44,152 nucleotides of DNA from Rhodocyclaceae bacterium (GTDB taxonomy: Bacteria > Pseudomonadota > Gammaproteobacteria > Burkholderiales > Rhodocyclaceae). The position numbers and the translations under genes were made by a program. This document shows, one piece after another, positions 3-41,022 of the stretch (position 1 is its first letter; each line of letters opens with the position of its first letter). The notes below the pieces were generated by a model. It was not told where the DNA came from and searched no databases. It saw only the letters and a program-made list of their open reading frames with translations. The stretch is taken from contig JANJVS010000084.1 of the NCBI GenBank assembly GCA_024709955.1, positions 1 through 44,152 on the forward strand, in the 5' to 3' direction.

Positions 3-755
3 TCGGCCGAGCAGCTCAACCACGCGGCGCGCTATTTCCCGGCGGTCGGGCTGATCGTCGGCGCCATCGGCGCGGCCGTCACGCTCGCGGCCGCGCTGGT
101 CTGGCCGCCGGCCATCGCCGTGCTGCTCGGCATGGTCGCCACGCTGCTCGCCACCGGCGCCTTCCACGAGGACGGCCTGGCCGACACCATCGACGGCTTC
201 GGTGGCGGCTGGACGCGCGAGCAGGTGCTGACGATCATGAAGGACTCGCGCATCGGCAGTTACGGCGCCATCGGCATCGGCCTCGCGCTGCTGACGAAGT
301 ACACGGCGCTGACGGAACTCGTGCAACTCGGCGCCACCGGCGTCGTCCCGCCGGTCCTTACCGTCTCGCCAGAACCGACTTTTGCGGCCATGCTGATCGC
401 CGGCCACGCCGTCTCCCGTTTCGCCTCGACGACGCTGATCTACTTCCTCGACTACGCAAGAGATGACGACAGTTCGAAATCGAAACCCCTCGCCACGCGC
501 ATGGGTAAGGGCGAGCTCGCCCTCGCCGCGCTGTGCGGTCTCGCGCCCTGCGCGCTGCTGCCGCTGCCGCAGGTGGCCGTCGCCCTCGGGCTGGTCGCGC
601 TCGTGACCTGGCTCGCCGCGCGCCGCTTCGTGCGCCGCATCGGCGGCTATACCGGCGACTGTCTCGGCGCGACGCAGCAGCTCACGGAGATCGCGTTCTA
701 TCTGGGACTGCTGTGCACCGGACCGCTCCAGGCAAGGTTCGGTGTCGGGGGCTGA
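3..755 (+). CDS. cobS: Adenosylcobinamide-GDP ribazoletransferase CobS (5'-truncated by window)
   Basis: Integral-membrane enzyme that joins adenosylcobinamide-GDP and alpha-ribazole (phosphate) in the last assembly step of cobalamin. The frame is open from base 3 and the true start lies before the window. Visible family signatures are [12 protein letters not shown], then [20 protein letters not shown] (acidic Mg-binding HEDGLAD/D) and KDSRIGSYG, with several hydrophobic membrane segments. The ending [19 protein letters not shown] is also typical. Odd: the segment around 340-390 ([11 protein letters not shown]) seems extra compared with usual CobS and coincides with a copy of the window's 25-bp dispersed repeat (359-383). 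The next gene is a CobC-like phosphatase 3 bp downstream, consistent with a cobalamin operon. The assignment is firm; the insertion is inferred from memory of the family, without an alignment. Confidence 0.93.
359..383 (+). repeat. 25-bp dispersed repeat, copy 1 (inside cobS)
   Basis: TACCGTCTCGCC then AGAACCGACTTTT matches copy 9 at 21 of 25 positions, and the match runs on through GCG. It is read in the same frame as the copy in dsbD (LTVSPEPTF). Confidence 0.75.
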
Positions 756-758
756 TCG

Positions 759-1292
759 GTGCGCCTGTACCTGATCCGCCATCCGCAGCCTGCCGTCGCG
801 CCGGGCATCTGCTACGGCAGCACCGATCTCGCGCTGGCCGGCGATCCGGCGCTGGATGCGGATGCGCTGCGCGGCCTGCTGCCGGCGGACGCGCCGCTCT
901 ACGCCAGCCCGCTCGCGCGCTGCCGCCTGCTCGCCGAGCGGCTGCATGCGGCGCCGATCTTCGACGCGCGCATCCGCGAGATCGACTTCGGCGATTGGGA
1001 GATGCAGCCCTGGGACGCCATCGACCGCGCCGCCATCGATGCCTGGGCGGCCGATCCCTTCCATTTCGTGCCCCCCGGCGGCGAGGCGGTGGCGACGCTG
1101 CGCGCGCGCGTCCTCGACTTCCTCGCCACGCTACCAGATGAGGCGGTGCTGGTCGCCCACGCCGGCGTCATCAAGATCTGCGCCGCCGAACTCGCCGGGG
1201 AGCGCGACTGGTTCGGCCTGCGCTTCGACTACGGCGCGGCCAGCCTGATCGAGGACGGCCGCTTCGCCTGGCGCAACCGGCGCGGCGGGTAG
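759..1292 (+). CDS. cobC: Histidine phosphatase family protein, CobC-like alpha-ribazole phosphatase
   Basis: Predicted to dephosphorylate alpha-ribazole-5'-phosphate (or the cobalamin 5'-phosphate made by CobS). The 177-residue product begins MRLYLIRHPQP, where RHP takes the place of the commoner RHG phosphohistidine motif. It continues with a YASPLARC segment, the acidic FDARIREIDFGDWE block and the second catalytic His in LVAHAGVIK. The GTG start at 759 lies 3 bp after the cobS stop, so the two genes are probably cotranscribed. The family is clear; the alpha-ribazole specificity rests on the cobS neighbour. Confidence 0.88.
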   Translation: MRLYLIRHPQPAVAPGICYGSTDLALAGDPALDADALRGLLPADAPLYASPLARCRLLAERLHAAPIFDARIREIDFGDWEMQPWDAIDRAAIDAWAADPFHFVPPGGEAVATLRARVLDFLATLPDEAVLVAHAGVIKICAAELAGERDWFGLRFDYGAASLIEDGRFAWRNRRGG

Positions 1293-1322
1293 AATGACGC
1301 GTCACTTCCGCGCGTCACGATC

Positions 1323-2480
1323 ATGCCCATCCTCCTGCGCCGCAGCCTCATCGCCCTCGTCGTCCTCGCCGCCGTCGCCGCCGCCGGCTGGTGGCTGACG
1401 CGCCCGAAGCCCATTCCGGTCAAGCTGCACACGGTCGCCGCCGGCAAGGTCGAGGCGACGCTGGCCAACACGCGCGCCGGCACCGTCGAGGCCTGCCAGC
1501 GCACCAAGCTGTCCACGATCATGGGCGGGCGCATCGAGATCCTCAGCGTCAAGGAAGGCGACCGCGTCAAGAAGGGCCAGTTGCTGCTCAAGCTCTGGAA
1601 CGACGACCAGCAGGCGCAGCAGGCGCTCGCCGGCACCCAGCTCGAACTCTCGAAGCGGCGCGTCGTCGAGGCCTGCACCGTCGCCGCCAACGCGCGGCGC
1701 GAGGCGACGCGCGTCGCCGACCTGCGCCGGCGCGGCTTCGTTTCCGAATCGAGGGAGGATGCGGCGCGCACCGAGGCCGAGGCCAGGGAGGCCGCTTGCG
1801 CCACCGCCCGGGCCGACGTGGCCCAGTCGCAGGCGCGCCTGGCCGCGACGCGCGTCGAGCCGCGCCGCATCACGCTGATCGCGCCCTTCGACGGCACGGT
1901 GGCGAAGATCGTCGGCGAGATCGGCGAATACTCGACGCCCTCGCCCCCCGGCGTGCCGACGCCGCCGGCCATCGACCTGATCGACGATTCCTGTCTCTAC
2001 GTCAAGGCGCCGATGGACGAGATCGACGCGCCGAAGATCCACGCCGGCCAGACCGTGCGCATCCGCCTCGACGCCTATCCGGACCGGGTGTTCGACGGCA
2101 AGGTGCGGCGCGTCGCGCCCTACGTGACGGCGGTGGAGAAGCAGGCGCGCACCGTCGATGTCGAGATCGACTTCGCCGCGCCGGAGAAGAGCGCCGGCCT
2201 GCTGGTCGGCTACAGCGCGGACGTCGAGATCCTGCTCGAAGCGAAGGACAACACGACGCGCGTGCCCACCGCCACGCTGCAGGACGGCAACCGCGTGCTG
2301 CTGCTCGAAGCCGACGGCAAGCTGGCGGCGCGCCAGATCAAGCCGGGACTCGCCAACTGGGAATTCACCGAGGTGCTCGACGGCCTGGCGCCCGGCGACC
2401 GCATCGTCGTCTCGCTGGAGAAGGAAGGCGTCAAGCCCGGCGCCCGCGTCGTCGAGGAAAGCCCCGCAGAAAAGAAATAA
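1323..2480 (+). CDS. HlyD/MacA-family periplasmic adaptor subunit
   Basis: Membrane-fusion (adaptor) protein of a tripartite efflux system. The 385 residues start with one N-terminal membrane anchor (about residues 6-24, Ala/Val-rich). A lipoyl-type half domain follows (GGRIEILSVKEGDRVKKGQLLLKLWN), then an alpha-helical hairpin rich in Ala, Glu and Arg, the second lipoyl half (APFDGTVAKIVGEIGEY), and beta-barrel and membrane-proximal domains near the C terminus. The stop overlaps the ATG of the ATPase gene by one base (TAATG), so translation is probably coupled. Substrate unknown. No outer-membrane TolC-type gene is present in the window. Confidence 0.9.
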   Translation: MPILLRRSLIALVVLAAVAAAGWWLTRPKPIPVKLHTVAAGKVEATLANTRAGTVEACQRTKLSTIMGGRIEILSVKEGDRVKKGQLLLKLWNDDQQAQQALAGTQLELSKRRVVEACTVAANARREATRVADLRRRGFVSESREDAARTEAEAREAACATARADVAQSQARLAATRVEPRRITLIAPFDGTVAKIVGEIGEYSTPSPPGVPTPPAIDLIDDSCLYVKAPMDEIDAPKIHAGQTVRIRLDAYPDRVFDGKVRRVAPYVTAVEKQARTVDVEIDFAAPEKSAGLLVGYSADVEILLEAKDNTTRVPTATLQDGNRVLLLEADGKLAARQIKPGLANWEFTEVLDGLAPGDRIVVSLEKEGVKPGARVVEESPAEKK

Positions 2481-3157
2481 TGTCCCTGATCGAGCTCTCC
2501 GCCATCGAGCGCGTGTTCACGCTCGGCGACAGCGAGGTGCATGCGCTGCATGCCCTCGACCTGGCCATCGCGGCCGGCGAGTACGTCGCGATCATGGGCC
2601 CCTCGGGCTCGGGCAAGTCCACGCTGCTCAACCTGCTGGGCCTGCTCGACCGCCCCGACGCCGGCCGCTACCGGCTCGAAGGCCGCGACGTGACGACGCT
2701 CTCCGCCGACGAGCAGGCGCGCGTGCGGCGCGAGCGCATCGGCTTCGTCTTCCAGAGCTTCCATCTCGTGCCGCGCCTGACCGCCGCCGAGAACGTCGCC
2801 CTGCCGCTGATGCTCGCCGGCGTCGCGCCGGCCGAGCGCGCCGTCCGCGTCGCGCGGGCCCTCGCCGACTTCGGCCTCGCCGACCGCGCCGGCCACCGGC
2901 CCGACCAGCTTTCCGGCGGCCAGCGCCAGCGCGTCGCCATCGCGCGCGCCACCATCATGCGGCCGGCGGTGATCCTCGCCGACGAACCGACCGGCAACCT
3001 CGACCGCGCCACCGGCGAGGAGGTGGTGCGCCTGCTCGAAGCCCTCAACGCCGGCGGCGTCACGCTGCTGATGGTGACCCACGACGCCGCCCTCGGCGCG
3101 CGCGCGCGCCGCCGCGTCGTCATGCAGGACGGCCGCAAGATCGCCGACGGCGCATGA
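2480..3157 (+). CDS. ABC transporter ATP-binding protein, MacB/LolD type
   Basis: Cytoplasmic ATPase of a MacB/LolD/FtsE-type transporter. The 225-residue product starting MSLIELSAIERVF has Walker A GPSGSGKS, a Q-loop in FVFQSFHLVPRLTA, the ABC signature LSGGQRQRVAIARA, Walker B VILADEPTGNLD and the switch His in MVTHD. An upstream in-frame extension exists, but ATG 2480 fits the domain and overlaps the adaptor stop. Its 3' end overlaps the permease start by 4 bp (ATGA). It probably serves the permease at 3154 and possibly also the detached permease at 7828. Confidence 0.95.
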   Translation: MSLIELSAIERVFTLGDSEVHALHALDLAIAAGEYVAIMGPSGSGKSTLLNLLGLLDRPDAGRYRLEGRDVTTLSADEQARVRRERIGFVFQSFHLVPRLTAAENVALPLMLAGVAPAERAVRVARALADFGLADRAGHRPDQLSGGQRQRVAIARATIMRPAVILADEPTGNLDRATGEEVVRLLEALNAGGVTLLMVTHDAALGARARRRVVMQDGRKIADGA

Positions 3158-4356
3158 CGCCCCTCGACACCCTGCGCTTCGCCACGCGCGCCGCCACCGG
3201 CTATCCGCTGCGCACCTTCCTCATGGTGCTGGCGATGAGCATCGGCGTCGCCGCCGTGGTGGTGCTCACGGCGCTGGGCGACGGCGCGCGGCGCTACGTG
3301 GTGAATGAATTCGCGTCGCTCGGCAGCAACCTCGTCATCGTCCTGCCCGGCCGCTCGGAGACCGGCGGCTTCAATCCGGCCAACGCCGTCACCAGCACGC
3401 CGCGCGACCTCACGGTGGACGACGCCCACGCCATCACGCGCGCGCCGGCCGTGCTGCGCACCGCGCCGCTCACCGTCGGCACCTCGGAGGCCGCCTGGGG
3501 CGGCAAGCTGCGCGACGTCACCATCGTCGGCACCACGGCGGACTACCTCAAGCTGCGGCGCATCGACCTGGCCCTCGGCCGCTTCCTGCCGGCGGAGGAC
3601 CCCAACGCGGCGGTGGCGGTGATCGGCGCGAAGATCCAGAGCGAGCTGTTCGGCGCCGAGCCGGGGATCGGCAAGGTGCTGCGCATCGGCGACCGGCGCG
3701 TGCGCGTCATCGGCGTGCTCGGCGCCACCGGCCAGGGTCTCGGCATGAACGCCGACGAGGTGGTGATCCTGCCGGTGGCCGTGGCGCAGGCGATGTTCGA
3801 CACCAACACGCTGTTCCGCATCCTCGTCGAGGCCAAGGGCCGGCCGCTGATCGAGCAGGCCAAGACGCAGACGCTGGAGATCGTCAAGGCGCGCCACGAC
3901 GGCGAGGAGGACGTCACGGTGATCACCCAGGACGCCATCCTCGCCACCTTCGACCGCATCCTCGGCACGCTGACCTACGGCGTCGCCGGCATCGCCGCGA
4001 TCAGCCTGGCGGTGGCCGGCATCCTGGTCATGAACGTGATGCTGGTGGCGGTCGCCCAGCGCACCGCCGAGATCGGCCTGCTCAAGGCGCTCGGCGCGCC
4101 CGGCGGCGCGATCCGCGACGCCTTCCTCGCCGAGGCCGCGCTGCTCTCCGCCACCGGCGCGCTGCTCGGCTACGCGCTTGGCCAGCTCGGCGCCTTCGGC
4201 CTGCGCACCGCGATGCCGGCGCTGCCCGCCTATCCGCCCGACTGGGCGGTGATCGCCGCCCTCGGCACGGCGCTGGCGACCGGCCTGCTGTTCGGCGTCA
4301 TGCCGGCGCGCCGCGCCGCGCGGCTCGACGCGGTGCAGGCGCTGGCGAAACGCTGA
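3154..4356 (+). CDS. ABC transporter permease, MacB/FtsX family
   Basis: Inner-membrane permease of the efflux or lipoprotein-processing ABC type. The 400 residues show the MacB layout: one N-terminal membrane helix (about 20-45), a large periplasmic domain (about 45-270), then three C-terminal helices. Family blocks include AQRTAEIGLLKALGAPGGAI and the closing PARRAARLDAVQALAKR. The start overlaps the ATPase gene by 4 bp. The stop is 3 bp from the stop of the convergent response-regulator gene, with no obvious terminator between. It is a paralogue of the permease at 7828. Confidence 0.93.
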   Translation: MTPLDTLRFATRAATGYPLRTFLMVLAMSIGVAAVVVLTALGDGARRYVVNEFASLGSNLVIVLPGRSETGGFNPANAVTSTPRDLTVDDAHAITRAPAVLRTAPLTVGTSEAAWGGKLRDVTIVGTTADYLKLRRIDLALGRFLPAEDPNAAVAVIGAKIQSELFGAEPGIGKVLRIGDRRVRVIGVLGATGQGLGMNADEVVILPVAVAQAMFDTNTLFRILVEAKGRPLIEQAKTQTLEIVKARHDGEEDVTVITQDAILATFDRILGTLTYGVAGIAAISLAVAGILVMNVMLVAVAQRTAEIGLLKALGAPGGAIRDAFLAEAALLSATGALLGYALGQLGAFGLRTAMPALPAYPPDWAVIAALGTALATGLLFGVMPARRAARLDAVQALAKR

Positions 4357-4359
4357 GTT

Positions 4360-7063: not shown

Positions 7064-7074
7064 GCGCCGGCATA

Positions 7075-7524: not shown

Positions 7525-7586
7525 AATGGCGCCCTGGCGCTCGGTTGTCGGCAGCGCCGCATTATGGCCGAGGAAAGGAAGCGCCA

Positions 7587-7814: not shown

Positions 7815-7827
7815 GCGTACCCGCGCC

Positions 7828-9027: not shown

Positions 9028-9073
9028 TCCGGCGCCGGCCACACCCCGGAAAAGTCCTTTCGGATGAATATCT

Positions 9074-9821: not shown

Positions 9822-12563
9822 TCAGTGCGCCTCGTCCCAGTTCGCCCCGACGCCGACCTCGGCGATGAGCGGCACGGCGAGCTTGGCGACGCCCGCCATC
9901 AGCGGCGGCAGGGCGGCCCTGACGGCGGCGAGCTCGGCTTCCGGCACTTCGAGGATGAGTTCGTCGTGCACCTGCATGATCAGCTTCGCCTGGAGTCCTT
10001 CCTTGTCGAGCCAGCCCTGCACGGCGATCATCGCCAGCTTGATGAGGTCGGCGGCCGTGCCCTGCATCGGCGCGTTGATCGCGGCGCGCTCGGCGCCCTG
10101 GCGGCGGCCGACGTTGCTCGATCGTATCTCCGGCAGCCAGAGGCGGCGGCCGAAGACGGTCTCGACGTAGCCGTGCTCGCGCGCGGCGGCGCGCGTCTCT
10201 TCCATGTAGCGCGCCACGCCGGGGTAGCGGGCGAAATAGCGGTCCATGTAGGTCTGCGCCGCCGTGCGATCCACGTCGATCTGCTTGGCGAGGCCGAAGG
10301 CGGACATGCCGTAGATGAGACCGAAGTTGATGGCCTTGGCGGCGCGGCGCTGCTCGTTGCTCACTTCGAGCGGCGTGATGCCGAACACCTCGGCGGCGGT
10401 GGCGCGGTGCACGTCCTCGCCGCGCGCGAAGGCGCCGAGCAGGCCGGCGTCGTTGGACAGGTGCGCCATGATGCGCAGCTCGATCTGCGAATAGTCGGCG
10501 CTGACGAGACGGTGGCCCGGCGGCGCGACGAAGGCGGTGCGGATGCGGCGGCCTTCCGGCGTGCGGATCGGGATGTTCTGCAGGTTCGGGTCCGACGAGG
10601 CCAGGCGGCCGGTGACGGCGACGGCCTGGGAGTAGCTGGTATGCACGCGGCCGGTGGCCGGGTTCACCATCTTCGGCAGCTTGTCGGTGTAGGTGCCCTT
10701 GAGCTTGGCGAGACTGCGATGCTCCAGCAGGCGCTTGGGCAGCGGGTAGTCCTCGGCGAGCTTCTGCAGCACTTCCTCGTCGGTGGAGGGCGTGCCCGAG
10801 GGCGTCTTCTTCACCACCGGCAGGCCGAGGTTGGCGAACAGGATCTCGGCGAGCTGCTTGGGCGAATTGAGGTTGAAGGGCTGGCCGGCGAGCTGGTGCG
10901 CCTCCGCCTCGATCTCCATCAGGCGGCGGCCGAGGGCGTCGCTCTGCCGGGCGAGCGCCGCCGCGTCCACGAGCACGCCGCCGCGCTCCATGCGGAAGAG
11001 GATTTCGGCGACCGGCAGCTCGATGTCGCGGTAGAGACGGTCGAGCTTGTCCTCCGCCGCGAGGCGCGGCGCCAGGGCATGATGCACGCGCAGGGTGACG
11101 TCGGCGTCCTCCGCCGCGTACTGGGCGGCGCGCTCGACGTCCACCTGGGCGAAGGAAATGCGGTTCGCGCCCTTGCCGGTGACGTCGTCGTAGCTGATGG
11201 TCGCCAGGCCGCAATGACGCGCAGCGAGCGAACCGAGTTCGTGGGGCCGGTCGGATTCAAGCACGTAGGATGCCAGCAGCGTATCGTCGGCGACGCCGGC
11301 GAGACGGATGCCGTGGTTGGCGAAGACGTGGCGGTCGTACTTGAGATGCTGACCGACCTTCTGGTGCGCGGCCGATTCGAGCCAGGGTCGTAGCTTTTCC
11401 AGCGTGGCGGCCAAGGGCAGCTGGTCGGGCGCGCCGGCATAGTGGTGGCCGAGGGGCAGATAGGCCGCCTGGCCCGGCACGATGCAGAAGGAGATGCCGA
11501 CCAGCCGGGCGTCCAGCGGGTCGAGGGCGGTGGTCTCGGTGTCGAGGGCGACGAGCTCGGCGGCGTCGAGGCGCGCCAGCCAGTCGGCGAGCCGCGCCTC
11601 GGTGAGAATGCACTCGTAGCCCGCGCGGTCCGGCTCGGCGAGGGTGTCGAAGGCATGCGGCGCGCTCGCGGCGGCCGCTGCCACCGTCCCACCAGCGCCG
11701 ACTTTTCGCGCCGGTGCTTCGGGTGCCTCGCCATCGAGCTCGCGCAGCCAGGTCTTGAATTCGAGCTCCGTATACAGGGCGGCGAGCCGGTCCTTGTCCG
11801 GCTCCGCCGGGGTGAGTTCGACGGCGGGCAGGTCGAGGTCGCGGGCGACGGTGACGAGCTTTTTGCCGAGCGGCAGGAAGTCGAGATGCTTCCTGAGGTT
11901 CTCGCCGACCACGCCCTTGATCTCGGCGGCGTGGGCGACGATGGCGTCGAGCGAGCCGTACTGCTCCAGCCATTTCACGGCGGTCTTGGGGCCGACCTTG
12001 GCGACGCCCGGCACGTTGTCCACCGCGTCGCCGACCAGGGCGAGGTAGTCCACGATCCGCCCGGGCGGCACGCCGAACTTGGCGGCGACGCCGGCGACGT
12101 CGAGCTTCTCGTCGGTCATGGTATTGACCAGCGTGACGCGCTCATCGACGAGTTGGGCGAGGTCCTTGTCGCCGGTGGAGATCACGCAGTCCTCGCCCGC
12201 AGCGGCGGCGCGCGCGGCGAGGGTGCCGATCACGTCGTCGGCCTCGACGCCCTCGACGCACAGCAGCGGCCAGCCCAGCGCGCGGATCGCCGCGTGCAGC
12301 GGCTCGATCTGGGCGACCAGGTCGTCGGGCATCGGCGGTCGGTGAGCCTTGTAGTCCGGATACCAATCGTCGCGGAAGGTCTTGCCCTTGGCGTCGAAAA
12401 CGATGGCGCGCCTGGCGGCGCCGGGGTAATCTGCGGCCAGGCGCCGCAGCATGGAAAGCACGCCATAAACCGCGCCGGTCGGCGCGTTGGCGCGGTTGCG
12501 CAAGTCGGGCAGCGCATGGAAAGCGCGGTATAAATACGACGATCCGTCGACAAGCAGAAGCAT
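9822..12563 (-). CDS. polA: DNA polymerase I
   Basis: A 913-residue repair and replication polymerase with all three domains. The 5'-nuclease domain covers about residues 1-285 (MLLLVDGSSYLYRAFHALP, VEADDVIGTLA, helix-hairpin-helix around GVAKVGPKTA). The 3'-5' exonuclease starts near 310, with D341 and E343 in ALDTETTALDP, so proofreading is probably active. The polymerase domain has the O-helix region RRAAKAINFGLIYG, motif A DYSQIELR and motif C QVHDELILEV. Odd: residues about 287-294 (KVGAGGTV), in the linker between nuclease and exonuclease domains, are encoded by a copy of the 25-bp repeat. No clear Shine-Dalgarno precedes the ATG, which is 9 bp from the divergent LOG gene. Confidence 0.97.
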   Translation of the reverse strand: MLLLVDGSSYLYRAFHALPDLRNRANAPTGAVYGVLSMLRRLAADYPGAARRAIVFDAKGKTFRDDWYPDYKAHRPPMPDDLVAQIEPLHAAIRALGWPLLCVEGVEADDVIGTLAARAAAAGEDCVISTGDKDLAQLVDERVTLVNTMTDEKLDVAGVAAKFGVPPGRIVDYLALVGDAVDNVPGVAKVGPKTAVKWLEQYGSLDAIVAHAAEIKGVVGENLRKHLDFLPLGKKLVTVARDLDLPAVELTPAEPDKDRLAALYTELEFKTWLRELDGEAPEAPARKVGAGGTVAAAAASAPHAFDTLAEPDRAGYECILTEARLADWLARLDAAELVALDTETTALDPLDARLVGISFCIVPGQAAYLPLGHHYAGAPDQLPLAATLEKLRPWLESAAHQKVGQHLKYDRHVFANHGIRLAGVADDTLLASYVLESDRPHELGSLAARHCGLATISYDDVTGKGANRISFAQVDVERAAQYAAEDADVTLRVHHALAPRLAAEDKLDRLYRDIELPVAEILFRMERGGVLVDAAALARQSDALGRRLMEIEAEAHQLAGQPFNLNSPKQLAEILFANLGLPVVKKTPSGTPSTDEEVLQKLAEDYPLPKRLLEHRSLAKLKGTYTDKLPKMVNPATGRVHTSYSQAVAVTGRLASSDPNLQNIPIRTPEGRRIRTAFVAPPGHRLVSADYSQIELRIMAHLSNDAGLLGAFARGEDVHRATAAEVFGITPLEVSNEQRRAAKAINFGLIYGMSAFGLAKQIDVDRTAAQTYMDRYFARYPGVARYMEETRAAAREHGYVETVFGRRLWLPEIRSSNVGRRQGAERAAINAPMQGTAADLIKLAMIAVQGWLDKEGLQAKLIMQVHDELILEVPEAELAAVRAALPPLMAGVAKLAVPLIAEVGVGANWDEAH
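11682..11706 (+). repeat. 25-bp dispersed repeat, copy 2 (inside polA)
   Basis: CACCGTCCCACC then AGCGCCGACTTTT matches copy 9 at 24 of 25 positions. It lies antisense to polA and encodes KVGAGGTV in the interdomain linker. Confidence 0.9.
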
Positions 12564-16665: not shown

Positions 16666-16792
16666 CACCGTCCTACCAGCGCCGACTTTTGGTTGCGGCC
16701 GCTGCGCTTAACGTTTGCTGCTCCGCCGTTAGCCTCCACCGAAAGTCGGGGTTTCTGCCCGCGGATTCACCGCCCTACCAGCGCCGATTTTC
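16666..16792 (+). repeat. Composite repeat element A (two 25-bp repeats around a core)
   Basis: Two direct copies of the dispersed repeat, 16666-16690 and 16768-16792, flank a 77-bp core. The core contains GGCCGCTGCGCTTAAC, TTAGCCTCCA and CGAAAGTCGGGG. A small inverted repeat TAACG/CGTTA (16709-16713, 16727-16731) lies in the middle. The element fills the maf-rng gap and ends 9 bp before the rng ATG. It matches element B at 25960-26082, which lies on the opposite strand. Confidence 0.85.
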
Positions 16793-16801: not shown

Positions 16802-18256
16802 ATGAATGAAGAATTCCTCATCAACTTCACGCCGCAGGAGACGCGCGTCGCGCTGATGCAGCAGGGCGCGGTGCAGGAACTGCACATCGAGCGCACCGGC
16901 GGGCGCGGCATCGTCGGCAACATCTATCTCGGCAAGGTGGTGCGCGTGCTGCCCGGCATGCAGTCGGCCTTCATCGAGGCCGGCCTGGAGCGCACCGCCT
17001 TCCTCCACGTCGCCGACATCTGGAGCGAGAAGAACGGCGACAAAACCGTCCGGCCGATCGAGCGCCTGATCGCCGAGGGCGAGACGCTGATGGTGCAGGT
17101 GCTCAAGGACCCGATCGGCACCAAGGGCGCGCGCCTGTCCACGCAGATCTCGCTGGCCGGCCGGCTGCTGGTCTACCTGCCGCAGGAACACCACATCGGC
17201 ATCTCGCAGAAGATCGGCGACGAGGCCGGCCGCGAATCGCTGCGCGAACGCATCCAGCGGCTGCTGCCCGCCGACGAGCAGGGCGGCTACATCGTGCGCA
17301 CCATGGCGGAAAACGCCACCGACGCCGAGCTCGCCGCCGACATCGCCTACCTGCGCCGCCTCTGGCAGGAGATCCGCCATCGCGCCCAGTCCTCGACCGC
17401 GCCGGCCCTGCTGCACCACGACCTGACCCTCGCCCAGCGCGTGCTGCGCGACCTCGCCGGTCAGGACACCGGGCGCATCGTCATCGACTCGCGCGAGACC
17501 TTCCAGAAGCTCTCGCTGTTCGCCCAGGAGTACATGCCCCAGCTCGCGCCGCTGCTGTCCCACTACACCGGCGAGCGCCCGCTGTTCGACCTCTACGCCG
17601 TCGAGGAGGAGATCCAGAAGGCGCTGGCGCGGCGCGTGGACCTCAAGTCGGGCGGCTACCTGATCATCGACCAGACCGAGGCGATGACCACCATCGACGT
17701 CAACACCGGCGCCTTCGTCGGCGCGCGCAACTTCGACGACACCATCTTCAAGACCAACCTGGAGGCGGCGCAGACCATCGCGCGCCAGCTGCGCCTGCGC
17801 AACCTCGGCGGCATCATCATCGTCGACTTCATCGACATGGAATCGCCCGAGCACCAGGCCGCCGTGCTGGCCGAGCTCAACAAGGCGCTCGGGCGCGACC
17901 ACACGCGGATTTCCGTCAACGGCTTCACCCAGCTCGGCTTGGTCGAGCTGACCCGCAAGCGCACGCGCGAATCCCTCGCCCAGATCCTCTGCGAGCCCTG
18001 CCCGACCTGCGGCGGCCGCGGCGTGGTGAAGACGGCGCAGACCGTCGCCTACGAGATCCTGCGCGAGCTGCTGCGCGAGGCGCGCCAGTTCGCCGCGCGC
18101 GAGATGCGCGTGCTCGCCGCGCCCGCTGTCATCGACCTGTTCCTCGACGAGGAATCCCAGGCGGTGGCGATGCTCTCCGGCTTCGTCGGCCGGCCGATCT
18201 CGCTGCAGGCCGAGCCGAGCTACAACCAGGAGCAGTACGATATCGTCTTGATGTAG
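16802..18256 (+). CDS. rng: Ribonuclease G
   Basis: Endoribonuclease of the RNase E/G family, acting in 16S rRNA 5' maturation and mRNA decay. The 484-residue length suits RNase G rather than RNase E. An S1-type domain lies near residues 35-125 ([23 protein letters not shown]). The catalytic domain includes [11 protein letters not shown] and IVDFIDM with metal-binding Asp residues. The Zn-link is [11 protein letters not shown]. The repeat element just upstream forms the leader, and no clear Shine-Dalgarno is seen before ATG 16802. Confidence 0.96.
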
Positions 18257-25959: not shown

Positions 25960-26082
25960 AAAAGTCGGCGCCGGCAGCACGGTGAGTCCCAACAGGCTTC
26001 CCCCGGCTTTCGTGGAGGCTAACCGGTTGAAAACCGGTTAAGCGCGGCGGCCGGAACAAAAGTCGGCGCCGGCGGCACGGTG
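25960..26082 (-). repeat. Composite repeat element B (two 25-bp repeats around a core)
   Basis: Read on the minus strand, copies at 26082-26058 and 25984-25960 flank a 73-bp core with GGCCGCCGCGCTTAAC, TTAGCCTCCA and CGAAAGCCGGGG. This is the same order and spacing as element A (copy starts 98 bp apart here, 102 bp there). The core carries a perfect 9-bp hairpin TAACCGGTT/AACCGGTTA (26020-26028, 26032-26040). In element A only the outer TAAC/GTTA arms are kept. It fills the gap between the clpX-like stop and the livH start. Confidence 0.85.
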
Positions 26083-34020: not shown

Positions 34021-34026
34021 GCCACC

Positions 34027-35886
34027 ATGACCATCCGCCTGCTCGCCCTGTTCTGGCTCATTTTCGCCAGCCTGTTCGCCCACGCCGCCGAACCCCTCGA
34101 ACCCGAGCAGGCCTACCGCTTCTCCGCCCGCATCATCGACGCCAAGACCATCGAGGCGCGCTGGACCATCACCCCCGACTACTACCTCTACAAGGAAAAG
34201 ATCTCCTTCAGCGCCGAGCCGGCCACGGTCAAGCTCGGCACGCCCGAGCTGCCCAAGGGCAAGGAAAAGGACGACGAGTTCTTCGGCAAGGTGCACATCT
34301 ATCGCGGCAACGAAGCCGTGGCGCGCATTCCCGTCGTCGCGGGCAGCGGCAGCTTCACGCTCAAGGCCGCCTCCCAGGGCTGCTGGGACGGCGGCGTCTG
34401 CTATCCGCCGATGACCCAGGAGGCGAAGCTCAGCCTCGCCGCCGCGCCTGCCGCCACCGTGCCACCAGTCCCACAGGGATTCCCTGCGGTCACGCCGAGT
34501 TTTTCGGCCGCGAAGACCGAGCCGGCGATGTCCGTGCCGGCCGCCGAGGCCGCGCCGCCACCCGCTGCCGCGGCGGCCGACCAGGGCGACGAGAGCGGCC
34601 GCATCGCCAAGCTGCTCAAGGGCGCGAGCTTCTGGGTCGCGGTGGCCAGCTTCTTCGGCTTCGGCCTGCTGCTCTCCTTCACGCCCTGCGTGTTCCCGAT
34701 GATCCCGATCCTCTCCGGCATCATCGTGAACCACGGCCACGCCGTGACCCACCTGCGCGCCTTCGTGCTCTCCCTCGCCTACGTGCTCGGCATGGCCGTC
34801 ACCTACGCGGCGGTCGGCGTCGCCGCCGGCTTCTCCGGCACGCTCTTGTCCGCCGCGCTGCAGAACGCCTGGGTGCTCGGCGCCTTCGCGCTGGTGTTCG
34901 TCGTGCTGTCGTTCTCGATGTTCGGCTTCTACGAGCTGCAGCTGCCCGCCGCGCTGCAGTCGAAGCTTTCCGACACCGCCAACCGGCAGGGCGGCTCGCT
35001 GTCCGCCATCGCGCTGATGGGCGCCTTGTCCGCCCTCATCGTCGGCCCCTGCGTCGCCGCGCCGCTGGCGGGCGCGCTGCTCTACATCGCCCAGACCAGG
35101 GACGCGCTGCTCGGCGGCGCCGCGCTGTTCGCCATGGCCCTCGGCATGGGCGCGCCGCTGCTCGTCGTCGGCGTGTTCTCGCGCTCCTTCCTGCCCAAGC
35201 CGGGCGGCTGGATGGAGGCGGTCAAGAAGTTCTTCGGCGTCGTGCTGCTCGCCACCGCGCTCTGGCTCGTCTCGCCGGTGCTGCCGGGCTGGGCGACGAT
35301 GGCCGGCTGGGCGGCGCTCTTGATCGTACCGGCGATCTACCTGCACGCCCTCGACCCGCTGCCGCCTCACGCCGGCGGCTGGCAGCGCTTCTGGAAGGGC
35401 ATCGGCGTCGTGCTGCTGCTCGTCGGCGCGGCGATGCTCGTCGGCCTGCTCGGCGGCGCGCGCGATCCGCTGCAGCCCCTCGGCTTCCTGCGCGCCGGCG
35501 CGGCCAACGCCGCCGTCGCCCACGGTCCGGCCTTCGAGCGCATCAAGTCGGTCGCCGAGCTCGACGCACGCCTCGCCAATTCCCAGAAGCCGGTGCTGCT
35601 CGACTTCTACGCCGACTGGTGCGTGAGCTGCAAGGAGATGGAGAAATTCACCTTCGCCGACCCGGCGGTCGCCGCCAAGATGGGCGAGTTCACGCTGCTG
35701 CAGGCCGACGTCACCGCCAACAACGAGGACGACAAGGCGCTGCTCAAGCGCTTCGGCCTGTTCGGCCCGCCCGGCATCATCTTCTTCGACAAGGCCGGCC
35801 AGGAGATCGCCGGCCTGCGCGTGGTCGGCTACCAGCCGGCGCAGCAGTTCCTGCCGGTGCTGGGCCAGGCGACGGCCAAGCGCTGA
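34027..35886 (+). CDS. dsbD: Thiol:disulfide interchange protein DsbD
   Basis: Inner-membrane electron shuttle that carries reducing power from cytoplasmic thioredoxin to periplasmic thiol proteins. The 619 residues comprise a signal peptide (ending LFAHAA) and the alpha domain with the Cys pair in GCWDGGVCYPP. A linker follows (about 140-195), then eight-helix membrane domain Cys in FTPCVFPMIPILSG and GPCVAAPLAG. The C-terminal thioredoxin domain has CVSC in ADWCVSCKEMEKF. Odd: linker residues about 143-160 are encoded by a 25-bp repeat split by a hairpin. Its likely clients include the TlpA-like protein and cytochromes just upstream. Confidence 0.96.
   Translation: MTIRLLALFWLIFASLFAHAAEPLEPEQAYRFSARIIDAKTIEARWTITPDYYLYKEKISFSAEPATVKLGTPELPKGKEKDDEFFGKVHIYRGNEAVARIPVVAGSGSFTLKAASQGCWDGGVCYPPMTQEAKLSLAAAPAATVPPVPQGFPAVTPSFSAAKTEPAMSVPAAEAAPPPAAAAADQGDESGRIAKLLKGASFWVAVASFFGFGLLLSFTPCVFPMIPILSGIIVNHGHAVTHLRAFVLSLAYVLGMAVTYAAVGVAAGFSGTLLSAALQNAWVLGAFALVFVVLSFSMFGFYELQLPAALQSKLSDTANRQGGSLSAIALMGALSALIVGPCVAAPLAGALLYIAQTRDALLGGAALFAMALGMGAPLLVVGVFSRSFLPKPGGWMEAVKKFFGVVLLATALWLVSPVLPGWATMAGWAALLIVPAIYLHALDPLPPHAGGWQRFWKGIGVVLLLVGAAMLVGLLGGARDPLQPLGFLRAGAANAAVAHGPAFERIKSVAELDARLANSQKPVLLDFYADWCVSCKEMEKFTFADPAVAAKMGEFTLLQADVTANNEDDKALLKRFGLFGPPGIIFFDKAGQEIAGLRVVGYQPAQQFLPVLGQATAKR
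34455..34504 (+). repeat. 25-bp repeat split by a palindrome, copy 7 (inside dsbD)
   Basis: The left part CACCGTGCCACCAG (34455-34468) and right part GCCGAGTTTTT (34494-34504) match the ends of the dispersed repeat. Between them lie 25 bp with the palindrome CAGGGA-T-TCCCTG (34474-34486), extended by CC/GG outside one mismatch. The whole stays in frame in the DsbD linker. Confidence 0.7.
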
Positions 35887-35888
35887 GC

Positions 35889-35913
35889 CACCGTCTTGCC
35901 AGCGCCGACTTCT
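35889..35913 (+). repeat. 25-bp dispersed repeat, copy 8 (left edge of island)
   Basis: CACCGTCTTGCC then AGCGCCGACTTCT matches copy 9 at 22 of 25 positions. It begins 2 bp after the dsbD stop and has the same orientation as copy 9 at the other edge of the Fic/NTPase island. Confidence 0.85.
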
Positions 35914-36018
35914 TCGCCGCCTGGATCATGTAGCCGGCCGCGCCGAGCCCATGCCGAATGCCGACGAATGACGGTTTGATGATAGGCTTTGCATCCAATA
36001 CGGAACTTGAGACGCGTC

Positions 36019-36177
36019 ATGCAACTGACTCCCAAGCTAAAGGACCAGATCGCCCAGGCCGTGCGCAATTCGATGCGCATCGAGGGGTACGCGCCGACCA
36101 AGTCACGGGAAGTCAAGGCCCAGGCCAAGATGCTGATGGAACGCCAGCGTGTCCAAGTATCGGTTCGAGGCAAGTGA
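36019..36177 (+). CDS. Class I Fic antitoxin (VbhA/FicA-like small protein)
   Basis: A 52-residue protein starting MQLTPKLKDQIAQAVRNSMRIEG. It carries the inhibitory motif [ST]xxxE[GN] as S18-M-R-I-E22-G23. In VbhA-type antitoxins this Glu blocks the ATP gamma-phosphate site of the partner Fic enzyme. The remainder (SREVKAQAKMLMERQRVQVSVRG) looks helical. It overlaps the fic gene by 29 bp, the usual arrangement for such pairs. An in-frame ATG at 35989 would add ten residues without obvious support. Confident from motif plus partner. Confidence 0.85.
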   Translation: MQLTPKLKDQIAQAVRNSMRIEGYAPTKSREVKAQAKMLMERQRVQVSVRGK

Positions 36178-36790
36178 CATCTACCTGCCGGGTACGGAAA
36201 TCCCGGCCAACCGCCTGGACATCCAGGACGCCGAACTGCTTGGCGAAATAGAAGAATCACTCCTGCAGCAGGCCTATCAGGTCTTCGTCGCCGAACTCGC
36301 ACCCGCGACCCGTTTCGACGAAGCCTATTTTCGGGAGCTGCATCGGCGGACGTTCGCCACACTCTACGACTGGGCAGGCGTTTATCGCACGGTGGATATG
36401 GCCAAGGGCGATTCCCTGTTCTGCCGCGCCGTGTTCCTGGAGCCCGAGGCCAAACGTATTTTCGGCGAACTCGAAGCCGAAAATTACCTCAAGGACGCAC
36501 GCGCCTGGCCGACGGCGCGCTTCGCGGAACGACTGGCCTACTATCAGGGCGAACTGATCGCCCTGCATCCCTTCCTCGAACTGAACGGCAGGATCACGCG
36601 ACTCTTCACCGACCTCATCGCCATGGCCAACGGCTACGGTCCCATCGACTATGGCCGTTCGCTCGACGACAGCGTGCCGAATGCCTACATCCGTGCCTCC
36701 ATCGCCTGCGTCCAGCGCGCGGATGTCGAACCGCTGCGACAGATCATTCTTGCCGGTCTCGTCAAGGCAGATGCTTCGCCCGAACGCTGA
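36149..36790 (+). CDS. Fic family protein (putative AMP transferase toxin)
   Basis: A 213-residue Fic-domain protein from a GTG start. The catalytic motif reads HPFLELNGRITR (H140, N146, G147, R148), where the common form is HPFx[DE]GNGR. The anion-hole Gly is therefore Leu. The flap region is VYRTVDMAKGDSLFCRAVFLE and the N-terminal lobe YLPGTEIPANRLDIQDAELL. Family members transfer AMP (sometimes other nucleotides) to target proteins such as topoisomerases. The antitoxin overlaps its 5' end, and the NTPase gene starts 12 bp downstream. Confidence 0.9.
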   Translation: MSKYRFEASDIYLPGTEIPANRLDIQDAELLGEIEESLLQQAYQVFVAELAPATRFDEAYFRELHRRTFATLYDWAGVYRTVDMAKGDSLFCRAVFLEPEAKRIFGELEAENYLKDARAWPTARFAERLAYYQGELIALHPFLELNGRITRLFTDLIAMANGYGPIDYGRSLDDSVPNAYIRASIACVQRADVEPLRQIILAGLVKADASPER

Positions 36791-36802
36791 GTCGCCGTAA
36801 CC

Positions 36803-39718
36803 GTGCGTATCAAATATCCATGGAAACGCTTCTGGGTTGCCCGCGATAGCAGCTATTCATCGGATGGCGGCTTTCTCGCGGACCCGGAAAGCGAGTATGC
36901 CTGGGCTTACCCCAATCGCGCCGTCCCCCTGGCGGAACTACGGGAGAAGCCGGCCCTGATATTGCTGGGCGAAGCCGGTATGGGGAAAAGCCGATCCCTC
37001 ATCGACGAACGCGATGCCCTTGCCGATTCGCTGCCGGAAGGCACACGCCTCCTGTACCGCAACCTGAACACCTTCGGTAGCGGTGAATTGCAGCGATTGG
37101 GTGACGAACTGTTTCGCGGCCCGGATTATGAGGCGTACCAACAGGGTGCCCGGCTCGTCGTCCTGCTCGACAGTCTCGACGAAGCCCTCAACGACATCCC
37201 GAACTTGAACAAATGGCTTGCCGAACAGTTGCGCCAACGGGTCACTCACCCAGAACGCTTCTTTTTGCGCATCGCCAGCCGTACTGCCGCCTGGCAAGAC
37301 AGCCTTGAAGTAGCGGTCAAGGACATCTGGGAGGCGGATCAGGCGGAAAACCTCGGCGTTTTTGAAATATGTCCATTACGCCGCGTCGACGTTGCGATAG
37401 CCGCCGACACCCGCAGTCTTGACGGTAACACCTTGCTGGAAGAAATACGGCGACGCGAAATCGAAGCGCTCGCCAGCCGCCCGGTGACCCTGGAATTTCT
37501 TTTCTCGCAATGGAGCAAAGACGGTTCGCTTTCCGACAGCAAGGCCGAACTGTATGAAAAAGGGATCTTGGCGCTTTGCGAGGAAAACAACCCGGAGCGG
37601 CGTTCTCGAAGCTATCTGATTGACCCGAGACAGCGCATGACGGTCGCCGGCCGACTGGCCTGCGCCCTAATCTTGTGCGGTCACTCGGCGCTCTGGACGG
37701 GACGGATTCAGGACACCCCGACCGGCGACTGCGCACTGGCCGATCTGACCGGCAAGGAGCGCCAAAGCGGCGGCGAGTTTCGCGTTGACGAGGGAGTGCT
37801 CCGCGAGGCACTGGAAATGTCCGGGCTATTCACCGGACTCGGCCGCGAACGAATGGGGTTCGCGCAGCAGTCTTTTGCCGAATTCCTCGCGGCCTGGTAT
37901 CTAAAAACTACCGGCACTGAAACCCATCAACGACTGCGGCCCCTCCAATTCGCCGACGGCGGCAAGCTGGTTCCCAAGCTGCACGAAACGGCCGCATGGC
38001 TCGCCTCCCTTGACCGGCCGGTATTGGAATACCTGATCGACCGGCAACCTGAATCGCTTCTGCATGTGGATGGCGCGGCATTGACGAATGCCGACAAGGT
38101 AAGCCTCGTTCAATCGCTGCTGGAGAAGATCGAACAACAGACCCTGTTTTCCCATGACCTGCCGCAGCGCGCGCTGCGCAAACTGTCCCATCCGGGTCTC
38201 GCCGAGCAATTACGCCCATGGATTCTCGATAAGAAGCGATACCGTCATAGCCGTGACTTCGCGCTGGACATGGCACGCTGGTGTGGCGTGCTGGAACTCG
38301 CCGGCGACCTCGTGAAGATTGCACTCGACGGCGAGGAAGACTACTACCTGAGGATCGCGGCCACCCACGTGATCGTAGGGCTCGATGATGGCCCGACCCT
38401 CGCCGCCATCAAGCCGCTCGCGCTAGGCGCCGCCGGGCCGGACCCCGACCGGCGGCTGAGGAAAATGGCGCTCCATGCCTTGTGGCCAAACCATCTCACC
38501 GCCGAAGAGTTTTTTGCTGGTCCTCTCGGGACAGACGATGACCGTTTCGTCGGCGATTTCGATATCAGCATTTCCGACGGTTCGTTCTTCAAGACGCTGA
38601 ACCCCTCTCACATGCCGACCGCCTTGGCCTGGGCAACGCGCCATGTCGTTCATCCTGGTTACGGCACGGGCAAGCTGAAAGCTGGACTGGCGCATGCCGC
38701 CTGGTCGTTCATCGATGAACCGGAAGTGCTTGATGCTGTGGTTGAGACGCTGCTTATATTCTTGAATCAACATGAGCATCTGTTTCTCGACCCCGACGCA
38801 CCGCAGGTTGATGATCCACTTGCGGATACAAGAAAGCGGCGGCTACTACTGAGACGGCTGCTGAGCGTGATACCACCCGACAAAGTAGGCTCGTTGGTTT
38901 TCTCTGACCATATCGCACGCCAGGATGATCTCCCCTGGCTGCTTGATTTGCTCGATACGACACTCTCGAAGACGGAGTATCGCTGCGCATCGCAGTTGAT
39001 CGGCAATCTACTCCGATCCGATGCGCCTCTGGATATCACCAACCGCATTCTCGCCCGTTGCGGAATTGCTCTGAAAAGACCGGAGAAGAGTCCGGATATT
39101 GTCTTGCGAAAGGCAGTCGCTTGGCTGGTACATCCCATGCGATTCAAAACATCGGCGACTCAACGAGCGCGCGAAAACTGGTGCGACAGCCAGGAGCGCC
39201 GAAAGAAGCGTCAATCAGTTCTGCTTGATCCACCGCCAGAGGAAAGGGTACGTACCGCACTCGAACGATGCGAGAGAGGTGATCATGCGTCATGGCCGAA
39301 GTTGGCCTTTGAATTAACGCTAACGCCGGACGCGCGCAACTATGCTTGGCCGAAAAATCCTGATGAGTTGCCGGGTTGGCAAGCGGCTGCGGATGATATG
39401 AGGAGCCGTATCGGGGGTGCTGCAATGGAATACCTCCGCCATGCCTCACCTGATAGGGACAAGCTGTATTCATCCAACTCGTTTTTCTTCGAGGATGTCG
39501 CCGGACTATTCGCCTTCGAGGTGTTGAGCCAGACCGCTCCTGACCGTCTCGCTCATCTGGAAGGCGAACATTGGGCGGAGTGGGCGCCGTTGATCATGGG
39601 CGGCTACCATGAGAAACAGGGCTGGTTGCAGGCGCTCCGTCGCGAAGCCTATCGCTACGCTCCGGAAGCCGTAGTCGACGCTGCGCTACGCTACGCTACG
39701 CTACATCGACAAAGATGA
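36803..39718 (+). CDS. NACHT-like STAND NTPase (N-terminal part, frameshifted before nuclease domain)
   Basis: A 971-residue frame from GTG 36803. Walker A is GEAGMGKS (56-63) and Walker B LLDSLDEA (121-128), with the D-x-x-D-E arrangement common in NACHT-type NTPases. Sensor-like RIASRTAAW and FAQQSFAEFLAAWYL (winged-helix end of NACHT modules) follow, then several hundred residues of helical, HEAT-like sequence. The frame ends abnormally in the tandem CTACG tract (ALRYATLHRQR, then stop). Sequence continuity resumes in the next frame. GC content is visibly lower than in surrounding genes, suggesting horizontal transfer. By analogy with Avs-like proteins it may sense phage and trigger a nuclease; this is an inference. 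Confidence 0.82.
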   Translation: MRIKYPWKRFWVARDSSYSSDGGFLADPESEYAWAYPNRAVPLAELREKPALILLGEAGMGKSRSLIDERDALADSLPEGTRLLYRNLNTFGSGELQRLGDELFRGPDYEAYQQGARLVVLLDSLDEALNDIPNLNKWLAEQLRQRVTHPERFFLRIASRTAAWQDSLEVAVKDIWEADQAENLGVFEICPLRRVDVAIAADTRSLDGNTLLEEIRRREIEALASRPVTLEFLFSQWSKDGSLSDSKAELYEKGILALCEENNPERRSRSYLIDPRQRMTVAGRLACALILCGHSALWTGRIQDTPTGDCALADLTGKERQSGGEFRVDEGVLREALEMSGLFTGLGRERMGFAQQSFAEFLAAWYLKTTGTETHQRLRPLQFADGGKLVPKLHETAAWLASLDRPVLEYLIDRQPESLLHVDGAALTNADKVSLVQSLLEKIEQQTLFSHDLPQRALRKLSHPGLAEQLRPWILDKKRYRHSRDFALDMARWCGVLELAGDLVKIALDGEEDYYLRIAATHVIVGLDDGPTLAAIKPLALGAAGPDPDRRLRKMALHALWPNHLTAEEFFAGPLGTDDDRFVGDFDISISDGSFFKTLNPSHMPTALAWATRHVVHPGYGTGKLKAGLAHAAWSFIDEPEVLDAVVETLLIFLNQHEHLFLDPDAPQVDDPLADTRKRRLLLRRLLSVIPPDKVGSLVFSDHIARQDDLPWLLDLLDTTLSKTEYRCASQLIGNLLRSDAPLDITNRILARCGIALKRPEKSPDIVLRKAVAWLVHPMRFKTSATQRARENWCDSQERRKKRQSVLLDPPPEERVRTALERCERGDHASWPKLAFELTLTPDARNYAWPKNPDELPGWQAAADDMRSRIGGAAMEYLRHASPDRDKLYSSNSFFFEDVAGLFAFEVLSQTAPDRLAHLEGEHWAEWAPLIMGGYHEKQGWLQALRREAYRYAPEAVVDAALRYATLHRQR
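39686..39704 (+). repeat. CTACG tandem repeat, 3.8 units, at the frameshift point
   Basis: Three complete CTACG units and CTAC. One additional unit, or two fewer, would join the NTPase frame to the downstream frame. With two fewer the protein reads VVDAALRYIDKDDL, a natural-looking helix. A 5-bp unit changes frame with each slip, as in phase-variable genes. Confidence 0.9.
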
Positions 39719-39917
39719 CCTTCGGGAACACGGCCTTTCTTCGTTATACGAATACGATTTTCTTTGGGGGCCGGCCTTCGTTGAGGGCCTCGTCTGCCGG
39801 CTAGATGAGGCCCGATACAAAACCCAATCGCGGCGGACGATTCTGGAAGCCCTCCTGAAACGTGGCGAACCCGTCGGCCGCCAGCGCGCACTTCATTTCC
39901 TCGCGCAGATAGACGAC

Positions 39918-40976
39918 ATGGCACTTCGCAGTGATGCCGCCGCATTGCTGCTGATCCACGATGGCGCCAGCAGTTGGCCGGCCTTATCGGCATTGCTCGC
40001 AAAGGAACCTGAATTTTCCGAGTCGTTTATTGGGCAAGCCGCTCATGACATGCGTTGGCACCAGCCGCAAGAGCCCACGTATTCGCTTAACGAGGAGCAA
40101 CTGGCGGAGTTGTACTTATGGATGGAAACTCGTTTCCCAGCCGCCCAAGACCCGGTGCATCAAGGTGGTTATTCGCCCTCGATACGTGACCACATCAAGG
40201 AATTTCGCGACAGTCTCATCGGCAACCTGAAAGCGGCGGGAACCTGGCCTGCGGTCGAGGCGCTGGAGCAGATCGCCGCCGCGCTACCCGACCGCGACTG
40301 GCTGAAATGGAGTTGCTTCCAGGCCAGGACCAACGCGATGAACACGCAATGGCAGGCATTGCGCTTGGACGAATTACTGGGCCTCCTTGGCGATCCCGCC
40401 GCACGGGTCATACGGACTGCGAGCGAGCTGCAAGGCGTCGTTCTGGAATCCCTGGCCCGCTTGCAGCTAAGCCTGCACGGCATGACTCCGCTGGCACCTT
40501 TCCTTTGGGACGAAGCAAGCGGAGTACCCAAAAGCGAGGGGCGCCTGTCGGACTTCATCAAGTTCCATTTGTCCAACGACCTCAATCGGCGCGGCGTGCT
40601 GATCAACCGTGAGGTCGAGCTTCGCAACTGGCCGGATAAGGGGCGGGGAGAAAGCCTCGACTTGCTGATTCAAGCGGTTCGGCATGGAGAGAAGCCAATC
40701 GACGTGATCATCGAGGTCAAACGCTGTTGGAATAGGGCGCTTGATACGGACATGGAGTCACAACTTCGTGATCGCTATCTGATTGGCTCACATCACAGTC
40801 ATGGCGTCTATCTCGTCGGCTGGTATGGCCGTGTTGGTGGCGGCAAAAGCTGCCAACTGGAATTGCACGAACTTCGTGAGAAACTGGACGAACAAGCCCG
40901 GTCGTTGAGTTCGGGCGCTGTTCATATCGAAGCTGTCGTGATGGACCTCAGCCTTCCGAAGAGTTCATCCACTTGA
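39918..40976 (+). CDS. C-terminal part of the NTPase gene: helical repeats and PD-(D/E)XK-like nuclease domain
   Basis: A 352-residue frame from its first ATG. The frame is open without stops back to the CTACG tract near 39693, so it is almost certainly the severed C-terminal part of the preceding gene. Residues 1-190 continue the HEAT-like helices. The end has REVELRNW, then ESLDLLIQAV (D248) and IDVIIEVKR (E266, K268), matching the D...E-x-K core of PD-(D/E)XK nucleases. Full length would be roughly 1,390 residues. Whether it is translated separately is unclear; no good ribosome binding site is seen before ATG 39918. Confidence 0.75.
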   Translation: MALRSDAAALLLIHDGASSWPALSALLAKEPEFSESFIGQAAHDMRWHQPQEPTYSLNEEQLAELYLWMETRFPAAQDPVHQGGYSPSIRDHIKEFRDSLIGNLKAAGTWPAVEALEQIAAALPDRDWLKWSCFQARTNAMNTQWQALRLDELLGLLGDPAARVIRTASELQGVVLESLARLQLSLHGMTPLAPFLWDEASGVPKSEGRLSDFIKFHLSNDLNRRGVLINREVELRNWPDKGRGESLDLLIQAVRHGEKPIDVIIEVKRCWNRALDTDMESQLRDRYLIGSHHSHGVYLVGWYGRVGGGKSCQLELHELREKLDEQARSLSSGAVHIEAVVMDLSLPKSSST

Positions 40977-40997
40977 AATTGCCGGGAATGTAGTCGG

Positions 40998-41022
40998 CAC
41001 CGTCCCGCCAGCGCCGACTTTT
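40998..41022 (+). repeat. 25-bp dispersed repeat, copy 9 (right edge of island)
   Basis: CACCGTCCCGCC then AGCGCCGACTTTT, used here as the reference copy. It lies 21 bp after the nuclease-domain stop and about 55 bp before ribE, directly oriented with copy 8. Confidence 0.9.

Follow-up and report, generated by a model that had tools for sequence, protein, structure and literature searches.

The 44,152-nt stretch of a Rhodocyclaceae bacterium genome analysed here (contig JANJVS010000084.1; "the window") carries ten copies of a 25-base signature, R, with the working consensus NRCCGTNNNNCCRGCGCCGACTTTT. R is an asymmetric sequence that recurs hundreds of times in the genome, falls evenly on both strands, has arisen in place at several sites, is conserved at orthologous sites, is scarce in low-GC DNA, and is restricted to one lineage in which it occurs as sub-types. 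By analogy with known systems, we regard it as about an even call that R is a self-recognition tag with an uptake-like role, working like the DNA uptake sequences (DUS) of Neisseriaceae and the uptake signal sequences (USS) of Pasteurellaceae. The claim concerns how R works, and membership of either class is not asserted.

The window was scanned on both strands for the pattern CACCGTSYYRCCRGCGCCGACTTTT with up to three mismatches, and 100 dinucleotide shuffles were used as a control. Nine whole matches were found, compared with none in each of the shuffles. In the whole genome (3,512,931 bp, 237 contigs) R matched 363 times on the forward strand and 335 times on the reverse strand at up to three mismatches, giving 698 matches, and a reversed-pattern control gave none; the dispersed family proposed in the earlier note is therefore real and above chance. 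A sample of the same genome comprising 425,704 bp (the window and 20 other stretches) yielded 112 copies with up to four mismatches and full flanks, at a density somewhat inflated because the stretches were chosen on contigs known beforehand to carry copies. Alignment of these 112 copies showed a conserved block of 25 bp, within which positions 7-10 and 13 vary most, and flanks that are weakly or not conserved. Among the 12-mers of the genome sample, the strongest over-representation is that of R pieces, with GCGCCGACTTTT observed 61 times against an expectation of 0.26. The mismatch spectrum in 445,704 bp is bimodal, with 50, 35, 25, 10 and 10 places at zero to four mismatches, followed by a background of 41 places at five and 208 at six.

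Sampled copies were found in coding sequence (54), in intergenic DNA (50) and at gene edges (8); a simple home-made gene caller marks 90% of this sample as coding. Coding copies are evenly split between sense and antisense orientation (27 each), and the strands are as well balanced in a one-contig relative, G017 (216/218), as in the source genome. Windows of 2 kb with less than 65% GC held 4 copies in 66 kb, against 106 copies in 378 kb above that value. Among the intergenic copies, 33 follow a gene that points at R and 16 do not, with one more at a locus end; given this preference, some may act as terminators.

The origin of coding copies was examined in orthologous genes. A copy at 10490..10514 on the minus strand, with 2 mismatches and missing from the first list of copies, lies in the polA codons for HRLVSADYS, a segment which we take to be motif A. 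These codons have 2-4 mismatches to R in 26 rows from R-rich genomes (23 distinct genomes) and 5-14 mismatches in 66 other public polA rows, with the peptide around ADYSQ nearly conserved; 16 of the 66 other genomes were shown to be R-poor, the rest are without an R count, and for five genus members the stretch fetched did not include polA. In G005, a member of the same genus, polA encodes a peptide identical to that of the window, yet its codons have 8 mismatches to R. As the codons are R-like in R-rich rows while the peptide is nearly constant, the 10490 copy is a genuine in-place copy. Orthologs without R were also gapless for the ABC transporter ATPase gene beside comEC (8/8 and 9/9) and for an aldehyde dehydrogenase gene (6/6). 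Exact R occurs 22 times in the genes of the source genome, compared with a mean of 0.05 in 20 synonymous shuffles, and 54 times at up to three mismatches, compared with about 15 after synonymous shuffling, so that peptide choice explains part of the near-matches. The 54 coding copies are read as KVGAGGTV (18), TVPPAPTF (15), HRPASADF (10), KSALAGR (9) and PSRQRRL (2), and the sixth frame is never used; such uneven use would fit, as expected, proteins limiting where R forms. Coding copies arise in place at several sites, by change within existing sequence, and for the most part R evolves out of sequence already present, in the manner of uptake sequences or recognition sites.

Conservation was assessed at 101 sites with up to one mismatch, 51 of which gave 205 gapless ortholog pairs. 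Identity was 84.7% at fixed R positions, 75.8% at degenerate positions and 70.1% and 66.4% in the immediate flanks, in a comparison whose query side was selected for being R, which favours the R positions. Orthologous copies appear from these alignments to outlast their flanks and to be kept near consensus rather than decaying. In comEC, each of the 14 R-rich genus members read had 1-3 copies at up to three mismatches and G005 had none, a comparison made after the fact on few orthologous sites. No R was found in comEC of the R-poor genomes G036, G028 and G021.

To define which bacteria carry R, 61 genomes (the source genome included) were counted with a stricter pattern, and 297 genomes sampled from the family were counted separately. 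R matches of any number were present in 29 of the 61; within the genus, 17 of the 18 others hold 87-670 copies and G005 holds none. In the family sample, 38 of the 297 genomes, in 7 of 68 genera, hold 159-761 copies, a bimodal distribution that we tallied from the table, and the remainder hold 0-40, for most of them a count like that of the reversed-pattern control (0-4); one of them, G307, is nearly R-free with 34 copies. Through named loci, 14 of 30 genomes tested were rich (149-761 copies), namely Sulfuritalea hydrogenivorans, Propionivibrio dicarboxylicus and metagenome-assembled genomes labelled Sulfuritalea sp. or Rhodocyclaceae bacterium, and the other 16, including Azoarcus, Thauera, Methyloversatilis, Accumulibacter and Herbaspirillum, had 0-8. 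Some handles denote the same or nearly the same genome (L041/G010, L044/G008 and L057/G006, identical in polA), and L050/G026 and L052/G116 have R matches at shared places. In a quick polA tree, with L052 left out, the 26 R-rich rows fall within one starred clade of 29 together with R-poor L047, L045 and G005. The hundreds of copies confined to one lineage that the earlier note proposed to look for were therefore found. The sub-types of R read CACCGT here, TGCCGT in G002 and G017, CGCCGT in G026 and AGCGTCGAC in L052/G116.

The R label needs three changes on this tree, and a single origin followed by losses would be a simple story. G005 lies inside the genus beside G006, in a placement that is unsure because its branch is very long (0.73). 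Its 401,761 bp contained no R copy at up to three mismatches, and the 12-mers that occur 8 times or more in these 402 kb included no substitute motif (highest z 6.2; in the source genome 54); G005 probably lost R. G005 (L185, L311 and L376-L395) has a lower GC content (0.61 versus 0.68), and absence of R there accompanies fast evolution. Separately, some R-poor genomes contain clustered copies (G153:C1 at 1.46-1.50 Mb, with 5 of the 7 copies in G153; G127 contigs 66 and 104; G093:C12), as if tracts had been imported from R-rich donors or contaminant contigs were present.

From these observations we infer a recogniser that acts in DNA uptake, and drive, not local function, as the force maintaining the copies. 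R would be a genome-wide recognition sequence that gathers in place by substitution in coding and intergenic DNA, helped by spacer turnover, and a continuing bias would keep it near consensus. The bias would most likely come from self-DNA recognition in horizontal exchange: a cell-surface receptor would prefer R-carrying DNA, recombination would swap the local allele for the R-bearing one, and R-like sites would rise to consensus across the genome, as DUS do in Neisseriaceae and USS in Pasteurellaceae. Uptake sequences are, to our knowledge, the sole described system in which asymmetric sites are kept by the hundred, evenly on both strands, with dialects and losses. A more specific proposal, to which we give slightly less than even weight, is that R is a third, independently evolved self-recognition system, in which a 25-bp uptake tag with sub-types and at least one probable nested loss (G005) would serve import in a Sulfuritalea-related clade of Rhodocyclaceae-type bacteria without recognisable ComEA.

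R was compared with other dispersed sequences. HIP1 of cyanobacteria is likewise an over-represented motif evolving in place in genes, but is a palindromic octamer, whereas R is asymmetric and 25 bp long. REP/BIME, ERIC and RPE elements are also dispersed in hundreds of copies, some of them within genes (RPE); unlike these, R is non-palindromic, arises in place at the coding sites tested and has no clean empty sites. USS share with R the many copies per genome and, in their extended form, a core followed by a T-rich end, but no competence regulon or equivalent of PpdA/ComN was identified here. The USS sequence itself is unrelated to R, the Haemophilus form (Hin-USS) reading AAGTGCGGT in the available part of PMC3630211. 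R also resembles DUS, which according to the same part of that source are short, asymmetric, over-represented words in genic and intergenic DNA, with dialects and with some members of the family lacking them.

Several results weigh against an uptake-like role. The model TIGR00426, which we take to represent ComEA, scored over cut-off in 18 of the 61 genomes, including 7 of 16 R-poor family members searched, and in none of 21 R-lineage genomes (19 genus members and the carriers G019 and G026); in 17 of these 21 a single match that falls short of the cut-off lies in an open frame of 620-1723 aa, and the other 4 have no match. PF03772 and PF02481, presumably ComEC and DprA, were found in 55 and 59 of the 61 genomes (57 over cut-off for the latter), and their presence proves nothing since they are equally common in R-poor genomes; DprA was not over cut-off in the carriers G019 (99% complete) and G014 (95%), and ComEC was not found in the carrier G018 (83%). 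In comEC itself, the carrier G019 has one R copy and the carrier G026 none. R, at 25 bp, is longer than DUS, which span 10-12 bp. The scarcity of R in low-GC DNA may in part reflect the composition of the motif itself, and GC confounds its reading as scarcity in foreign DNA; the fast evolution of G005 alone could have eroded R there. At the junction between the maf and RNase G (rng) genes, the two genes touch or overlap in 11 of 18 relatives, G007 and G012 have a solo R, G016 has a 3-mismatch R and the window has two copies, so that intergenic R can lie in spacer DNA absent from relatives and not every copy arose by substitution alone. Pairs of R are rarely inverted, with one inverted pair within 100 bp among the 112 sampled copies; DUS pairs are often inverted and lie at terminators, as reported in the available part of PMC3630211. 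DUS also have a known receptor, the minor pilin ComP (accessible part of PMC12616744), whereas no receptor for R was identified: at the 50 GspH-type loci read, of those listed, none of the pilin groups nearby separates R-rich from R-poor genomes. GspH-type pilins, present in 53 of the 61 genomes, are on this ground doubtful candidates for the R receptor; the GspH protein of G005 belongs to no large pilin group, as far as could be told.

The main rival explanation, which we consider rather unlikely, is that a lineage-specific protein for chromosome structuring, segregation or repair binds R, with hundreds of sites selected for that role. In-place origin and a conserved footprint would suit any recognition site, the failure of every R-lineage genome searched to reach the ComEA cut-off agrees with it, and so does the strong excess of R outside genes, where 50 of the 112 copies lie although 90% of the sample is called coding. 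The sequence is nevertheless asymmetric and strand-balanced, whereas known chromosome-architecture motifs are replichore strand-biased, regional or palindromic. The 100 forward-strand copies listed for G017 fill its first 1.18 Mb at a density close to that of the whole genome, as counted by eye. A binding site would also need strong selection on some 700 single sites, synonymous polA codons included, and R can be lost, being completely absent from G005 and nearly so from G307.

A non-autonomous mobile repeat, similar to REP elements or miniature inverted-repeat transposable elements, moved by an unseen enzyme and with coding copies as old inserts, is improbable. The maf-rng spacers that bear R where relatives have touching genes would suit such an element, as would the opposite orientations of R in the polA linker of different species and seven direct R pairs, 97-105 bp apart, that flank a hairpin element in the source-genome sample. 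The earlier note had anticipated a new element family, and in the sense of a mobile insert of the REP, ERIC or RPE kind this did not hold: direct flank duplications and inverted flanks were at chance in the 112 sampled copies, the R sequence contains no terminal inverted repeat or palindrome, and clean 25-bp absences formed no peak. In orthologous genes without R (at least 6 mismatches), 172 of 374 comparisons were gapless around the R codons; the others had gaps, 1-20 codons long and for the most part located in variable linkers, and 15 of the 374 showed a lone 8- or 9-codon gap. These 374 rows are non-independent, as many re-sample the same sites, and a wrong frame was assigned at some sites, which adds gapped rows; one comEC site, for instance, is read as AVLPAPTF in G003 but as KSRRWQDG in G000. 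Seventy-eight sites were assigned to genes and 62 were not, the latter set also holding some genic sites, and no comparison was obtained where the regions fetched contained no ortholog of a site. Broad changes in spacer length were seen at the 56 unassigned sites with enough flank, with an exact 25-bp difference in no comparison and a difference within 4 bp of that in three comparisons. With flanks at chance, no clean absences and gapless R-less orthologs in polA, the ABC transporter ATPase and aldehyde dehydrogenase genes, a mobile repeat is largely ruled out for the coding sites tested.

The flanked hairpin element appears twice in the window. Between the maf gene (assigned by Pfam) and the RNase G gene, R at 16666..16690 (+) is followed by a spacer at 16691..16767 (+), consisting of the hairpin element (GCTTAAC ... 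GTTAGCCTCCACC) and an inverted AAAGTCGG, and by a second R at 16768..16792 (+), directly before the RNase G start at 16802. The second composite lies on the minus strand, with R at 26058..26082 after an AAA+ ATPase gene, the hairpin spacer at 25985..26057 and R at 25960..25984 upstream of a branched-chain amino-acid permease gene. The hairpin element (GGCTnCGGCCGC ... GCTTAAC-stem-loop-GTTAGCCTSCRCC), seen also in L201-L210, has a variable stem with apparently compensating changes. It has 15 exact pattern matches in the source genome, occurs in 15 of the 61 genomes, R-poor ones included, and seems by eye to lie within other hairpins, including apparent tRNA anticodon arms in L205 and L207. Three composites showed only a modest gain in folding over shuffles (z -0.6 to -2.5). 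The R-hairpin-R arrangement looked promoter-like, but a promoter/terminator cassette was rejected, the middle being a hairpin of variable stem that also occurs in R-poor genomes. An integron attC site was rejected too: GCTTAAC/GTTAGCC resembles its R boxes, but the hairpin is shorter than such a site requires and the second of the boxes does not conform to GTTRRRY.

A tag for another form of biased exchange (a gene transfer agent, phage packaging or conjugal transfer), with the same drive without competence, is very unlikely, although it would explain drive-like spread without ComEA; exact R was found in 93 stretches of a viral contig collection, matches that are possibly host-derived or integrated DNA. 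Chance, or a protein-level artefact of GC-rich coding sequence, is refuted in spite of the recurring peptides KVGAGGTV and TVPPAPTF and the near-matches that survive synonymous shuffling, given the empty shuffles, the reversed control (0 against 698), the exact copies (22 against 0.05) and the half or so of sampled copies that are noncoding.

All nine copies listed at first in the window were borne out, eight of them whole (359, 11682, 16666, 16768, 25960-, 26058-, 35889 and 40998) and one split at 34455; with the 10490 copy this makes nine whole and one split. Their placement inside three coding genes also held, gene calls and Pfam giving cobS, polA (twice) and dsbD, with the remainder intergenic. 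In cobS, R (TACCGTCTCGCCAGAACCGACTTTT) lies at 359..383 (+) with 3 mismatches and is read as TVSPEPTF. At 11682..11706 (+) it is antisense in a variable polA linker, where it encodes KVGAGGTV; the same linker in relatives has R in either orientation. This linker (L041-L055) is rich in repeats: in L046 a GGGGACAGACCACGGTTTT inverted repeat surrounds R, and L054 and L055 both have a repeat of the CCCTCTCCCC/GGGGAGAGGG type. The interrupted copy in dsbD (34455..34503, +, bounds by eye) was scored as one copy by no tool and was found by direct reading: CACCGTGCCACCAG (34455-34468) is followed by a 24-base insert (34469-34492) and then by CGCCGAGTTTT (34493-34503). The insert is in frame and has the core CAGGGA-T-TCCCTG. 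Another copy starts two bases past the dsbD stop codon (35889..35913, +), and the last (40998..41022, +) lies upstream of a gene of the lumazine-binding, riboflavin synthase type; this copy could pair with the AGTCGGC before it in a terminator-like hairpin, as read by eye without folding.

Other features of the window were noted. The region 36000-41000 has a lower GC content (0.58-0.63) and may be acquired DNA; no whole R copy lies between 35914 and 40997, and a 971-aa open frame at 36803-39718 was passed over as a gene by the codon model. Six imperfect 40-nt direct repeats spaced 102-174 nt apart (42745-43513) lie within a called minus-strand gene and resemble those of a repeat-domain protein. 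An imperfect 48-nt inverted repeat with C/G runs (43980-44152) closes the window, possibly as an assembly effect of the contig end.

An Rfam scan of the window gave no match at gathering score. No report of the R motif, or of uptake sequences in Rhodocyclales, was found in a literature search whose scope left out most subscription papers and all preprints, and literal 13-mers of R turned up in four plant papers only. In the literature searched, to the extent that the sources were available, uptake sequences are described for two families, Neisseriaceae and Pasteurellaceae, and the reason for their existence is debated. If R is instead a protein binding site, it would reveal a lineage-specific, chromosome-wide recognition system not met in that literature. 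If R is an uptake tag, drive could be tested against selection independently in a third, environmental lineage, whose motif is much longer and which has sub-types and probable losses. It would also give a computable marker of DNA origin, in the form of R-bearing tracts inside R-poor genomes, and would predict genetic exchange in these environmental bacteria.

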